Origin: a virus
Length of the DNA stretch: 41,500 bases
Strand: one strand, 5' to 3'
Virus record (IMG/VR): IMGVR_UViG_3300048584_000027
Span: 1-41,500 of that record
In this document: one piece after another, positions 31,005 to 37,626 of the stretch
Numbering within the stretch: position 1 is the first letter of the stretch
How the letters are laid out: every line of letters begins with the position of its first letter
Program-made: the position numbers and the translations under genes
Notes under the pieces: generated by a model
The model's input: the letters and a program-made list of their open reading frames with translations, nothing else
What the model was told of the DNA's origin: nothing
The model's database searches: none

Positions 31005-31496
31005 TTATTTAATCAATTCATCGTATGAAATAAATGTAACCACCCCGCCGCTGCATGTATCGATTGTCGCCGCAAATTCAACCGCTTCAATTGCCGATTT
31101 CCCGAGTTTCATGGCCGCCAAGGCAAAATAACACCCAGATCCGATGGCGAAAGACTGATCGCCGCTTGATATTATATTAAGCTTACACTCCTCTGATTCG
31201 TCCATCTTAGTAAAATTAAATATTTTTTTGTTATCAGTTAATAGCACAGCTCCCTGATATCCTGATTTTGAAAATTTATTTCCATACCGCAATCCAGACT
31301 CAAGAGCGCGGATGATTTCATAATAAAAACCAGGATTCCCAGCGTTAGCAAATGCAATTATTTTATGCCCCTCAATCCGCCAATCCGCGCCATCACAAAC
31401 GTGAATTTTTTTTTCATTATCGGACACTATATCGCCACCAGCCGTAACGCGCCCGTCTGCCGCCAATGTTTCACCATCCCATGCAATCGTTGTCAT
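31005..31496 (-). CDS. Proteasome-like (HslV-type) Ntn hydrolase (163 aa)
   Basis: The opening MTTIAWDGETLAADGRVT is that of phage proteins related to proteasome beta/HslV subunits; after removal of Met, Thr2 would be the nucleophile. Further signs are NEKKIHV (the lysine region), KIIAFANAGNPG, and FAIGSGCYFALAAMKLGKSA-IEAVEFAATIDTCSGG, the glycine-rich end typical of the fold. Substrate is unknown and no HslU/unfoldase is encoded here. Two operator-like palindromes (31527-31571) lie just upstream. Confidence 0.8.
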   Translation of the reverse strand: MTTIAWDGETLAADGRVTAGGDIVSDNEKKIHVCDGADWRIEGHKIIAFANAGNPGFYYEIIRALESGLRYGNKFSKSGYQGAVLLTDNKKIFNFTKMDESEECKLNIISSGDQSFAIGSGCYFALAAMKLGKSAIEAVEFAATIDTCSGGVVTFISYDELIK

Positions 31497-33459: not shown

Positions 33460-33951
33460 TCATTTATGCACCCCTCTCAACCCACGCGCGCCAGTAAGTC
33501 CAGAACAATCTATACAGTCATCGCAGTCTGTGCAGTCTGTGCAGTCTGTGCAGTCTGTACAATTCTTGCAGTCGGTGCAATTCTTACATCTGAATCCACG
33601 ATCACAGTTGTGGCAATTATCACAAAGCATAGATTGCGTGCAATTTTCGCACTTATCACAGCGCTTGCATCCTCGGCAGTCAACACATTCGTTGCAGCTT
33701 TTACAGTGCTCACAGCGCTTACAGAGCACGCACCCCTCGCAGCTTTTGCAGTCATCGCAGAGTAGGCAGCCTGCACACCATTCGTTGTTCTTACCGAACA
33801 TGCCTACTTGACAATTCCAACATCCAATATGTGTGGCGCTCATCTCCTCCCAATCAGGAAGATCCTCAGCTAAATCAAGACTAAACCCATTAACCGCCTT
33901 GTCCTCTCGCTCCAGAAATTCAGCGTAAGAGGTAAAGATTTGTGTTGTCAT
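33460..33951 (-). CDS. Cysteine tripeptide-repeat protein (163 aa, 31 Cys)
   Basis: The first 42 residues are ordinary (FTSYAEFLEREDKAVNGFSL). From residue 43 nearly every third residue is Cys: CWNC, CAGCLLCDDCKSCEGC, CKRCEHCKSCNECVDC, ending CTDCTDCTDCTDCDDC. I count 31 Cys. A three-residue period suggests a stacked helix or coil with one Cys row, possibly binding metal or forming disulphides. Similar (xxC)n proteins are known as uncharacterised phage or bacterial proteins. The DNA has a matching 9-bp tandem repeat at 33524-33559, so length may vary between isolates. No signal peptide is seen. Confidence 0.7.
   Translation of the reverse strand: MTTQIFTSYAEFLEREDKAVNGFSLDLAEDLPDWEEMSATHIGCWNCQVGMFGKNNEWCAGCLLCDDCKSCEGCVLCKRCEHCKSCNECVDCRGCKRCDKCENCTQSMLCDNCHNCDRGFRCKNCTDCKNCTDCTDCTDCTDCDDCIDCSGLTGARGLRGVHK
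33524..33559. repeat. Tandem 9-bp repeat, four copies
   Basis: CAGTCTGTG repeated three times and a fourth copy with one change. Encodes Thr-Asp-Cys repeats on the minus strand, in the Cys-rich gene. Confidence 0.85.
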
Positions 33952-35119: not shown

Positions 35120-35538
35120 TGAGCCACCCGCTTAAAATCTCTCAAACTGATACCGGCTTTTGATAGCCAGTGTCTTATAGTCGATTGTTTCATATCCATC
35201 AACTGCGCAACCTCGCTCATAGAATTTCTTTCTAACATCTTGAGAATCTTAGATAATTTCTCTTTTTTTTCCTTGTTTGGCAGAATGACAGGCTTGAATT
35301 TTACATTTAACTTTTTACCAGCTCGGCGCACTTGGTTTACATCAAGATCTAGCTCTTTTGCTATCAAGTAAGCGGTTTTTGATTCTGCATTTTCTTTAAT
35401 AAAATCAATCATGTGATTCGGTAATCTAATCTCAAGATCGCGTGATCGCTGCTTCTCCTCGTCTTTGACATTTGCGCGATCAATGCGCGCCTGTGCTACT
35501 TGTTTCAGTAAAAAAATTAAGTTGGATTTTTTCATCAT
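35116..35538 (-). CDS. Two-HTH regulatory protein (140 aa)
   Basis: Two helix-turn-helix segments: KTAYLIAKELDLDVNQVRRA (about 54-73) and NSMSEVAQLMDMKQSTIRHW (about 105-124). The first resembles sequence-recognition HTHs paired with KKLNVKF. A long basic linker lies between (LPNKEKKEKLSKILKML). It is cotranscribed with P and dam. It is a good candidate for the activator of late transcription, since no other regulator than Cro and the small junction HTH is seen, but this is inference. Confidence 0.65.
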   Translation of the reverse strand: MMKKSNLIFLLKQVAQARIDRANVKDEEKQRSRDLEIRLPNHMIDFIKENAESKTAYLIAKELDLDVNQVRRAGKKLNVKFKPVILPNKEKKEKLSKILKMLERNSMSEVAQLMDMKQSTIRHWLSKAGISLRDFKRVAQ

Positions 35539-36242
35539 ACACCCCTTGTTTTTTCAATGGTTTTCTTGATTTTCGCTATTGCATCAAGTGCGATCTTTGG
35601 ATCACACGGAATAATTTTGTCTTCGATAAGTTTCGTTTCAATCTGCGGGATCTCTCCGCCGTCTTGCAAGATCCGCGCAATCAGTTTTATAACCCGCTCG
35701 CACTCGATTAGCGTAGAACGGTCTGTAAGCGATTCTGAGCGCATCTTAGAGTAAACCCTACCCACCGCATAGGCATGTATGTGATCGCGCCACGGATACC
35801 CCGTAGATTCGCAATAATTGGCTTTTGTGTTGGTGTAGGTCATCACATCTTCAAAAAGTTGCTCTGAAGTCATTAAGCCAAGGTTTTGCAGTTCAGCAGT
35901 TTTGCACCAGTCGATAAACTGGCCAACGGCGGGGAAAAAAGGGTTTGCGCTAGCTCGTGCGCCCTTTAGCCCCGCCCTAAGCTGCTCGCTTGAGTGTATT
36001 TTTTCATCACGAAACGCAATGATCCACTGTCGCTTAGTTAGCTCCTCATGTGTTAAGTCTTTGAAAACTGTATTAATACTCGCCGGAAAAATCAGTTTTA
36101 GGCGGTCAAATAGCCAGTTAACGATCTCTTCGGCGCGGTCATCGATCCGCTCTTGCTTTGCAGCGTGTCCAGCTTTTCCCGCCATCTTAGCCAGTGCTGA
36201 GGAGTCTTTGGATTGTATGATTTTCAACAGGTTAGAAGCCAT
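35535..36242 (-). CDS. Replication protein P-like helicase loader (235 aa)
   Basis: Lambda P recruits host DnaB to the origin. Matching features: IVNWLFDRLKLIFPAS (lambda has a comparable LLATFPAS), KRQWIIAFRDEKIHSSEQLR-AGLKGARASANPFFPAVGQF-IDWCKTAE; the RQW..aFRe...t.eQ...G...ar.....F.Ps.GqF..WC block is diagnostic. Start at MASNLLKII follows AGGTG and overlaps the O gene by 11 bases. Confidence 0.85.
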   Translation of the reverse strand: MASNLLKIIQSKDSSALAKMAGKAGHAAKQERIDDRAEEIVNWLFDRLKLIFPASINTVFKDLTHEELTKRQWIIAFRDEKIHSSEQLRAGLKGARASANPFFPAVGQFIDWCKTAELQNLGLMTSEQLFEDVMTYTNTKANYCESTGYPWRDHIHAYAVGRVYSKMRSESLTDRSTLIECERVIKLIARILQDGGEIPQIETKLIEDKIIPCDPKIALDAIAKIKKTIEKTRGV

Positions 36243-37089
36243 ACGAATCACCTACTACGCGCTCGATTCGCTCATTCCCAAAATTTGGGATCTCTTCAGT
36301 AGCCCAAGCGGCGTCTGTGTTCCAAGCAGATCTTGAACGCTCCTGTAGCGCCTGTTTCGCCTGTATCGTGTTGTTTTTTAGAGGAAATAGTCCTTGCCAG
36401 CCGTTTGAGATCGATTGATCAATTATTGATTGTGCTGTGTAGCCGATCTTGGCTTGTTCAGCCAGCAGCTTGATCTGTTTGCTAGCCGTTGCGATTGATT
36501 TGATTGGCTTGCCAATGTCCTTGCGGTACTTAACCCATTCTAGCCAAGCAGCAGGATCGACGGATTCAGGTAGATCAACTCGATCAGCCGAAAACTTTTT
36601 GCTTTTAGACGATTTCCCCCCGTGGGGGGTTAGGGGGGTTATGTTTATATCTGTGTTTATATCTGTGTTTATATCTGTAACATTGCTCATTTTTGAGCAA
36701 TCTACATCGCTCAATTCCGAGCAATGCCATTGCTCAATTATGAGCGATCCAACTTCTAATTTTTGGACTTCAGAAGCGCCAAATTCCGGCATACTGTACC
36801 AGTTGGATCTATCGAAAGGATCATTACTGTAATGCCCTGACAGTAGCGCCCCATCAACGACTAATTCGCGTAAAAGCCGCATGATTTTTTTTGACGAAAA
36901 ATAAGGAAATAGTTTTTCAAATGCGGTTGAGCTGTTGAATGTCCAGTAATGCCCATCGTAAAAATGCTTTCCATTTGCTTTATTTTTCAAAAGCCAAAAA
37001 TGGATGTTGTACAAAAGAATTGCTTTGTCAACTCCATATTTTATTGCATCTTCACACTTGAAACTGTGGACTAATTGTGTATCATACAT
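36232..37089 (-). CDS. Replication initiator, lambda O-like position (285 aa)
   Basis: N-terminal part is a winged-HTH replication domain (VDKAILLYNIHFWLLKNKAN, HYWTFNSSTAFEKLFPYFSS, KIMRLLRELVVDGALLSGHY). The middle holds DINTDINTDINIT and PLTPHGGKSSKSKKF, a low-complexity part frequent in phage initiators. The C-terminal part (PAAWLEWVKYRKDIGKPIKS) is DnaT/DnaD-like. ATG with AGGAG 7 nt upstream; a GTG three bases earlier is possible. The origin candidate (36642-36748) lies inside the gene, as in lambda O. Confidence 0.8.
   Translation of the reverse strand: MYDTQLVHSFKCEDAIKYGVDKAILLYNIHFWLLKNKANGKHFYDGHYWTFNSSTAFEKLFPYFSSKKIMRLLRELVVDGALLSGHYSNDPFDRSNWYSMPEFGASEVQKLEVGSLIIEQWHCSELSDVDCSKMSNVTDINTDINTDINITPLTPHGGKSSKSKKFSADRVDLPESVDPAAWLEWVKYRKDIGKPIKSIATASKQIKLLAEQAKIGYTAQSIIDQSISNGWQGLFPLKNNTIQAKQALQERSRSAWNTDAAWATEEIPNFGNERIERVVGDSYGF
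36616..36629. other. GC hairpin CCCCCC-GT-GGGGGG beside the origin
   Basis: A six-base GC stem next to a further GGGGGG run at 36633-36638. It lies directly beside the AT-rich 12-mers and encodes the PHGG part of O. Could be part of origin structure or just codon bias of that motif. Confidence 0.4.
36642..36677. repeat. Three tandem AT-rich 12-mers (unwinding element candidate)
   Basis: TGTTTATATCTG is repeated three times without a mismatch. Placed directly beside the three iterons, these resemble the AT-rich direct repeats where bacterial and phage origins melt. They encode the Asp-Ile-Asn-Thr repeats of the O-like protein. Confidence 0.75.
36682..36748. other. ori: Origin candidate: three 20-bp palindromic iterons
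   Basis: Three sites of the form AT-T/C-GCTCA-N4-T/C-GAGC-A/G-AT at 36682-36701, 36706-36725 and 36729-36748, spaced 24 and 23 bp. The first has perfect 8-bp arms. Lambda O binds four palindromic iterons of similar size inside its own gene, next to an AT-rich region; here the same layout is seen. Replication activity is inferred. Confidence 0.75.
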
Positions 37090-37113
37090 CACGTTACTCC
37101 TGTTGAATGGTTC

Positions 37114-37130
37114 GTCAGCCCATTACTGAC
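37114..37130. promoter_or_regulatory. Inverted repeat GTCAG-N7-CTGAC at the O transcript start
   Basis: It lies just downstream of the -10 at 37139-37144 and before the O ribosome site, so a protein bound here would block O transcription. The short stem could also act on RNA level. Confidence 0.4.
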
Positions 37131-37138
37131 ATACCGAG

Positions 37139-37147
37139 ATTATAGCA
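37139..37147 (-). promoter_or_regulatory. Extended -10 promoter (TGCTATAAT) before the O gene
   Basis: TG-C-TATAAT on the minus strand is a perfect extended -10; a TTGCAA lies 21 bp further upstream, too far to be ideal. It would start transcription near 37132 and drive O, P, the HTH regulator and dam separately from cro. Confidence 0.5.
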
Positions 37148-37199
37148 ATTCTGGAAAAATAAATCTTGCAATACCGTTTTTCCGTGTTAATATAATCAC
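37140..37199 (-). CDS. Possible 19-aa leader peptide between cro and O
   Basis: A GTG (complement of 37197-37199) lies 7 nt after AGGAGG, the best ribosome site in this window, and reads MIILTRKNGIARFIFPELL to TAA. An ATG nearer to the site stops after two codons. It occupies the place of cII in lambda. It could be a leader peptide or a decoy. Confidence 0.3.
   Translation of the reverse strand: MIILTRKNGIARFIFPELL
37166..37196 (+). promoter_or_regulatory. Rightward promoter opposite to cro-O transcription
   Basis: TTGCAA (37166-37171) and a perfect TATAAT (37191-37196), 19 bp apart, on the plus strand. It would start near 37203, about 70 bases before the terminator at 37249-37275. Confidence 0.45.
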
Positions 37200-37202
37200 T
37201 GC

Positions 37203-37275
37203 ATCACCTCCTAAGTTAAGTTGATTTGTTACTCCATGTGTTGTGTTTGCCCCCATTTTTTGGGGGCTTTTTTTT
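37203..37275 (+). ncRNA. oop-like antisense RNA candidate (about 73 nt)
   Basis: Between cro and O, on the strand opposite to them, a promoter (37166-37196) and a strong terminator enclose 73 bases. The RNA would be antisense to the AGGAGG leader region and end in the cro stop codon. Lambda oop RNA (77 nt) has the same place relative to O and the same opposite direction. No plus-strand gene exists that otherwise needs this terminator. Confidence 0.5.
37249..37275 (+). terminator. Rho-independent terminator, plus strand
   Basis: GCCCCC - ATTTTTT - GGGGGC followed by eight T. The T-run overlaps the cro stop codon. On the minus strand no T-run follows, so it serves rightward transcripts. Confidence 0.85.
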
Positions 37276-37504
37276 ACTTATTTCTCGGGTACGGCTTGAT
37301 CTCTATGGAACGCTCAACTTTTCCGTAACCGTCAGTAAAAACAACGATCTTGCGACCGCGAGAAATAGCAACGCTGATGTTGCCCTGCTCTATACCCAGC
37401 TCTTTAGCTGCCGGATCTTGCCCCCCTTTTTGCTTTACAAAATCCTGCAAAATGCAAACTCTATCACCATAGAGCTTTTTTAAATCATCAATAAATTGCT
37501 GCAT
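37274..37504 (-). CDS. cro: Cro-family repressor (76 aa)
   Basis: Close in layout to lambda Cro: QDPAAKELGIEQGNISVAIS is the helix-turn-helix, followed by RGRKIVVFTDGYGKVERSIE and IKPYPRNK (lambda ends V-K-P-F-P-S-N-K). It should bind palindromic operators as a dimer and shut down early promoters. AGG precedes the ATG at 10 nt. No CI partner gene is seen on the other side. Confidence 0.88.
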   Translation of the reverse strand: MQQFIDDLKKLYGDRVCILQDFVKQKGGQDPAAKELGIEQGNISVAISRGRKIVVFTDGYGKVERSIEIKPYPRNK

Positions 37505-37566: not shown

Positions 37567-37596
37567 TGCGAATATCTAAAAACGATTATATCATTC

Positions 37597-37626
37597 TGTT
37601 TTTTATGTGTTAATATTCTGTAAAAA
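37597..37626 (+). promoter_or_regulatory. Candidate late promoter before the lysis operon
   Basis: CTGTTTTTTAT at 37596 and TGTAAAAA at 37619, near identical to the sequence 35 bp before the small terminase gene (3655-3684). Read as TGTTTT N18 TAAAAA. Weak boxes suggest activator dependence. Confidence 0.35.

Follow-up and report, generated by a model that had tools for sequence, protein, structure and literature searches.

The window, by which we mean the whole stretch of 41,500 bases of viral DNA analysed here, carries on its minus strand (36232-37092) the gene for an O-like replication initiator of 286 amino acids with a GTG start. The protein matches PHROG 678, annotated as 'replication initiation O-like' (E 9e-33), and PHROG 11233 (E 1e-26). 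Adjoining it on the same strand is the gene for a P-like helicase loader (35535-36251), which matches Pfam Phage_lambda_P (E 9e-44) and PHROG 109 (E 4e-48) and, at 32% identity to lambda P, is a true lambda-P homologue. A Cro-like gene lies upstream (37274-37504, minus strand; Pfam Cro, E 4e-10). The record also contains a tail-sheath gene; the phage is therefore contractile-tailed, as had been predicted. No near-identical phages of the structural region were found. Read along the coding strand, the O-like gene contains an N-terminal DNA-binding domain (36760-37092), three palindromic sites, three tandem 12-mers, a GC-rich block and a C-terminal domain of the lambdoid type (36280-36640).

The palindromic sites, or iterons, are each 20 bp long and are spaced by 24 and 23 bp, in agreement with the original prediction. 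In coding-strand order, iteron 1 (36729-36748) reads ATCGCTCATAATTGAGCAAT (ATTGCTCAATTATGAGCGAT on the plus strand), with arms complementary at seven of eight positions; iteron 2 (36706-36725) reads ATTGCTCGGAATTGAGCGAT (plus strand ATCGCTCAATTCCGAGCAAT), with six of eight; and iteron 3 (36682-36701) reads ATTGCTCAAAAATGAGCAAT (plus strand ATTGCTCATTTTTGAGCAAT), with perfect arms, eight of eight, around an A-tract centre, ATTGCTCA-AAAA-TGAGCAAT on the coding strand. The description of the sites as palindromes holds for the two outer iterons, while the middle one is imperfect. The motif GCTCA-N5-GAGC is confined to these three places in the 41.5 kb, with five matches on both strands together against a mean of 0.30 in shuffled sequences, none of 100 shuffles reaching five. 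When three mismatches are allowed, ten sites are found against 6.2 expected and significance is gone; the signal therefore consists of near-exact sites. In single-stranded form, the DNA of the iteron region pairs strongly with itself (z −6.2 against shuffles).

On the 3′ side of the iterons, at 36642-36677 (minus strand), are the three 12-mers CAGATATAAACA (plus strand TGTTTATATCTG), which encode DINT repeats. They are perfect tandem copies, as predicted (TRF score 74, 100% matches), and their 36 bp are 75% AT and nearly the least stable of the O-like gene. The GC block follows at 36616-36639 (minus strand), reading ACCCCCCTAACCCCCCACGGGGGG (C6/C6/G6; plus strand CCCCCCGTGGGGGGTTAGGGGGG). It falls just outside the interval 36642-36748 first proposed for the origin, which is otherwise placed correctly. 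The block had been called a hairpin, which is not the term that suits it best: as single-stranded DNA, its stability is not above that of shuffles (z about −0.5).

No similarity to lambda O could be detected in the O-like protein (BLASTP E 0.45), which does not match Phage_rep_O (PF04492) at E <= 1, while the same model detects the O proteins of lambda, phiES15 and mEpX1, all at E 6e-36. A Pfam search of the protein gave no match, RepA_N (PF06970) included, and a list of 25 families for 36 members of the N-domain family does not contain RepA_N either. No relatives were found by sequence in the PDB, nor when viral contigs were searched with the full-length protein as a single query. Alignments place the N-domain in a family of phage initiators for which Pfam has no model. 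Its relatives are widespread, both in phage contigs and in the genomes of Proteobacteria, Bacteroidota, Bacillota, Spirochaetes, Patescibacteria and others. An AlphaFold2 model (pLDDT 87.5) predicts a winged helix for the N-domain. The best-matching solved folds are those of the RepA_N initiators 4pql, 4pt7 and 5kbj (E 4e-3, TM 0.60), which superimpose with Z 8.8 over 89 residues and an rmsd of 3.0. The model suggests that the N-domain likely shares descent with the RepA_N initiators, although unrelated winged helices come close, with Z up to 8.1. The C-domain was modelled with moderate confidence (pLDDT 72), and this model gave no fold match.

In sequence, the C-domain is 53% identical over 91 residues to that of the O protein of Cronobacter phage phiES15, and the similarity starts at the GC block. 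From the block onward the second half of the gene is phiES15-like, and the O-like gene is therefore a mosaic, in which the N-domain, iterons and 12-mers are of one type and the GC block and C-domain of the lambdoid type. Near-identical GC-block DNA (ACCCCCCTAACCCCCC...GGGGGG) is present in several phiES15-type O genes. The enterobacterial lambdoid O genes, which share this type of C-domain, differ from the window in their N-domain, which is Phage_rep_O in those checked (phiES15, lambda and mEpX1), and in having an AT-rich tract of the ACAAAAGACA type instead of the 12-mers (75 of 76 genes with the GC block). No CAGAT array was found at the origin in 80 lambdoid loci; six CAGAT-N7-CAGAT matches in such loci lie 1.2 kb away from it and were discarded as unrelated. 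The type of AT-rich element follows the type of N-domain. Another chimera was noted in Vibrio phage 1.247.A, where a gene at 1492-2379 couples an N-domain like that of the window to a C-domain which, on visual comparison, resembles that of lambda O.

Iterons were surveyed in the 210 nt following the N-domain in 104 non-redundant relatives (below 75% N-domain identity). A three-copy array scoring at least 35 is present in 74% of them, against 2.3% of control stretches. The array consensuses are inverted repeats, mostly with 22-bp spacing, of the form ATT-N5-(about 4)-N5′-AAT, as in ATTGGTCAaaaaTGACCAAT and ATTCAGCCaaacGGCTGAAT, and 33% of them show a dyad of at least seven in eight positions, against 0.6% of shuffled consensuses. 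The outer ATT and AAT recur, while the inner pentamer differs between phages, as would be expected of binding sites of changing specificity. The iterons of the window belong to this family, which bears out the claim that their sequence is unlike that of lambda. Relatives of the N-domain were also seen in contigs of streptococci, eubacteria and related bacteria (L177-L204), with repeats in their linkers too; these loci are possibly mobile elements.

The 12-mers are conserved in relatives at the nucleotide level. Exact copies of the 22-mer CAGATATAAACACAGATATAAA were found in 24 IMG/VR contigs, in all 24 within initiator genes of this kind, in one frame and 3′ of the iteron-holding linker region; the same letters reversed gave no match in IMG/VR. 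In 97 relatives collected by protein similarity alone (517 kb), CAGAT-N7-CAGAT has 62 matches in the linkers of 42 genes, one elsewhere on the same strand and none on the other strand. Codon choice in these relatives was compared with expectations from each gene's own usage. The Ile of the PIP motif is encoded by ATA in 64 of 64 cases (23.3 expected) and its second Pro by CCA in 72 of 74 (28.3 expected); the first Asp is GAT in 41 of 43 (25.9 expected), and the first Thr or Pro is ACA or CCA in 42 of 43 (17.8 expected). Larger codon sets, which include loci found through the 22-mer itself, gave the same result as the loci found by protein alone. Where amino acids are substituted (INT, SKP, NKP), the DNA pattern of the array is preserved. 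Slippage may have homogenised the array and so account for some of its uniformity, but it cannot explain the fixation of the PIP codons, which lie outside the repeat. These codon patterns indicate that the array (CCTATACCAGATATAAACACAGATATAAAC) is constrained as nucleic acid across the N-domain family; they are equally compatible with a DNA role or an RNA role. A recognisable pair of 12-mers is retained by only a minority of the relatives, so the element is not universal, and, the relatives having been chosen by similarity to one domain, the counts describe that N-domain family only. In a scan with the exact and a degenerate pattern, 38 of 128 loci had no N-domain; we set these aside as mostly chance-like repeats in other genes, with a few fragments of initiators at contig ends.

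The GC block is distributed differently. The 24-nt form ACCCCCCTAACCCCCCANGGGGGG occurs in nine IMG/VR contigs, within initiator-like genes whose N-terminal regions are of four kinds, and one of the loci (L389) reads the block in another frame, as NPPNPPRGE versus TPLTPQGG. A degenerate form gave at least 119 matches in at least 118 loci. Among the matches listed, the block is in the middle of the open reading frame in 59 of 65 non-redundant frames, with the three reading frames used 29, 20 and 10 times, and the tract directly before it is richer in AT (0.65 versus about 0.47) and in purines. Block carriers match several initiator and primosomal PHROG families, and their N-domains include the unrelated Pfam families DUF1376, HTH_36, Phage_rep_O, Lin1244_N and DUF6291. 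Of 20 hand-picked, and thus non-random, members with a mid-ORF block, 18 match an initiator or primosomal PHROG. In a small sample collected independently of the block, CCC encodes 19 of its 29 prolines, against 4.3 expected. The use of all three frames, together with the unrelated N-domains, identifies the block as a nucleotide element. It is present in about 9 of 104 members of the N-domain family; PHROG searches of 185 genomes gave too few initiator loci, and the proline motif was absent from those found. The block is therefore not universal. Many enterobacterial versions have no G-run (PPKSP type), so pairing is not its defining feature.

Taken together, we estimate at close to nine in ten the probability that the segment 36616-36748, within the linker-coding part of the O-like gene, is the replication origin of the phage, as judged from homology and layout. 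The call is well supported because both an initiator and a loader gene have been identified and the layout equals that published for ori-lambda: iterons in the middle of the gene, an AT-rich tract on their 3′ side and a P-like gene adjacent. The original proposal of an origin inside the O-like gene draws its support from the PHROG 678 match, the lambda-P homologue and this order of elements. A GC-skew check had also been suggested; there is no turn in skew at this site, and the measure is uninformative, skew following gene direction.

In ori-lambda, the iterons and AT tract also lie in the middle of O; three iterons suffice for growth, two iterons with the AT tract form the minimal unwinding unit, and lambda O binds AT-rich single strands (PMC7466680). 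The O-P lambdoid origins, those of Stx phages included, share with the window the position inside the initiator gene, inverted-repeat iterons at 20-24 bp, an AT-rich tract 3′ of them and an adjacent, homologous P gene. They differ in the initiator, in the sequences of iterons and AT tract, and in the GC block, which is not seen in lambda O. The term lambda-like, as first applied to this origin, is apt for its architecture and its P partner; descent from the lambda origin is not borne out by the initiator comparison, the missing Phage_rep_O match and the different iteron family.

Similar features are described for RepA_N replicons. In plasmids pSK41 and pPR9, the origin lies centrally within rep and the N- and C-domains are modular (PMC5703833), and RepA_N iterons are described as semi-palindromic around a poly-A centre (PMC7145576). 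The N-domain is described as swapping modularly together with the origin (PMC5703833, PMC7145576, PMC8263062). Central, intragenic inverted-repeat iterons around an A-tract, as in these descriptions (PMC5703833, PMC7145576), are found in the window. RepA_N initiators (pSK41, pTZ2162, Vibrio cholerae PLE) provide the nearest solved folds for the N-domain of the window protein, and RepA_N replicons resemble the window in having a central intragenic origin. The window differs in that its initiator does not match PF06970, has only moderate fold similarity and is paired with a phage P-like loader; the RepA_N descriptions, in the parts available, mention no AT-rich 12-mer array.

Short AT-rich repeats beside initiator sites, in the form of tandem 12- or 13-mer unwinding elements, are known from oriC and RK2. 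The array of the window differs from these in sequence, in lying in a coding frame and in travelling with a phage initiator domain. We define by alignment a family of initiators with a CAGATATAAACA array; the window combines its three features, an N-domain match, an iteron array and a 12-mer array 3′ of it.

The observed sequence elements and domain families, their order and the nucleotide-level conservation of the 12-mers and GC block in relatives suggest a possible mechanism. Dimers of the winged-helix N-domain would bind the three iterons, which are about two helical turns apart, and the resulting nucleoprotein complex would wrap or strain the DNA. The adjoining 12-mer array would then melt, with the initiator holding the open strand. 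An unwinding element is the simplest reading of the array, because its 36 bp come close to being the least stable of the gene and adjoin the iterons. The C-domain of the initiator would recruit the P-like protein, which would deliver the host helicase, and replication would start as in lambda. The GC block, beyond the array, lies where the melted tract would end, and the role we prefer for it is to bound the opening or to mark the loading site.

Other explanations should be weighed against this. Palindromic arrays can be operators, and the sites may serve the O-like protein or another regulator in repressing its own operon, the 12-mers and GC block being mere coding repeats of a flexible, low-complexity linker, in which slippage generates tandem repeats. 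We regard this as very unlikely: the sites are about 340 bp into the gene, not at a promoter, relatives hold arrays of different sequence at the same place, codon choice is fixed far beyond gene usage even for the unrepeated PIP codons, and a linker conserved as protein cannot explain a GC block used in all three frames. Only slightly less improbable is that the 12-mers and GC block act as an RNA signal in the O-like transcript, for pausing, antitermination, processing or translational control. Codon-level conservation fits an RNA equally, the C6 of the block can pair with its G6, and lambda-type origins need transcription through them; against this, the window has no Rfam match, the hairpin is no stronger than shuffles, many relatives of the block lack the G-run, and the tract beside the iterons has the low stability that an unwinding element should have.

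More serious, though still unlikely, is the view that the GC block is a recombination linker for swapping initiator halves, with no replication role. Lambdoid phages are classic examples of mosaics joined at shared sequences; in the window, the block is the point from which the O-like protein resembles phiES15 O, and the 24-nt form is common to initiators with unrelated N-domains. The use of all three frames argues that it is not simply passed on by in-frame exchange, and its position after an AT- and purine-rich tract in diverse initiators also speaks against this view. Least probable of all is replication from elsewhere, with 36616-36748 as an origin relic or secondary origin. A single record and an uninformative GC skew leave room for it, but O and P are intact neighbouring genes, the record has no further copy of the iteron motif and no other comparable array was seen.

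Returning to the origin reading, we lean somewhat towards a broader proposal, in which widely different initiator genes would share origin signals that are independent of the protein: a domain-tied CCTATACC-AGATATAAACAC-AGATATAAAC melting array found across phyla, and a frame-independent CCCCCCT-N(2-6)-CCCCCC-N(1-3)-GGGG block directly 3′ of an AT-rich tract, next to unrelated DNA-binding domains. If this is true, the GC block would represent a general element of origins that has not yet been described, acting as a boundary, strand-folding or helicase-loading signal. It is the array and the block that merit further work, the intragenic origin architecture itself being already known. The novelty of these two elements is provisional: searches of the open-access literature with strings of the 12-mer array or GC block returned no relevant paper, in a collection from which subscription journals are largely missing.

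To our knowledge, the origins of most phages are unmapped. The two signals recur almost letter for letter in initiator genes of phages that are unrelated, and can therefore be tested as general origin parts; if they are real origin parts, they would provide a sequence handle for origins inside the initiator genes of uncultured phages. Synonymous recoding could separate the nucleic-acid role of the array and block from their protein role. The O-like gene is a chimera made by nature: its RepA_N-like head, with the iterons and the melting array, meets at the GC block a lambdoid tail whose partner is P. It is suited to asking which half of the gene carries which origin function.

Several further features were noted around the origin. 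A promoter-like site on the minus strand at 37585-37613 (TTAACA-17-TATAAT, extended −10; an 11 of 12 consensus match only) is a candidate for a pR-like promoter that would transcribe through the origin, in a region where the promoter count is not above that of shuffles. On the plus strand, in the interval 37058-37275, another promoter-like site lies within the start of the O-like gene, the promoter count here also being not above chance, and a strong intrinsic terminator (GCCCCCATTTTTTGGGGGC-T8) lies between O and cro. Together they may give rise to an antisense transcript of about 170 nt, in the position that OOP has in lambda. Elsewhere on the minus strand, the gene at 33460-33951 encodes a protein of 163 amino acids that matches PHROG 15341 and has a great many CxxC-like cysteine pairs and a TDC repeat, and the early region contains, at 31005-31496, a gene for a predicted HslV-family peptidase (PHROG 1040, E 1e-31).
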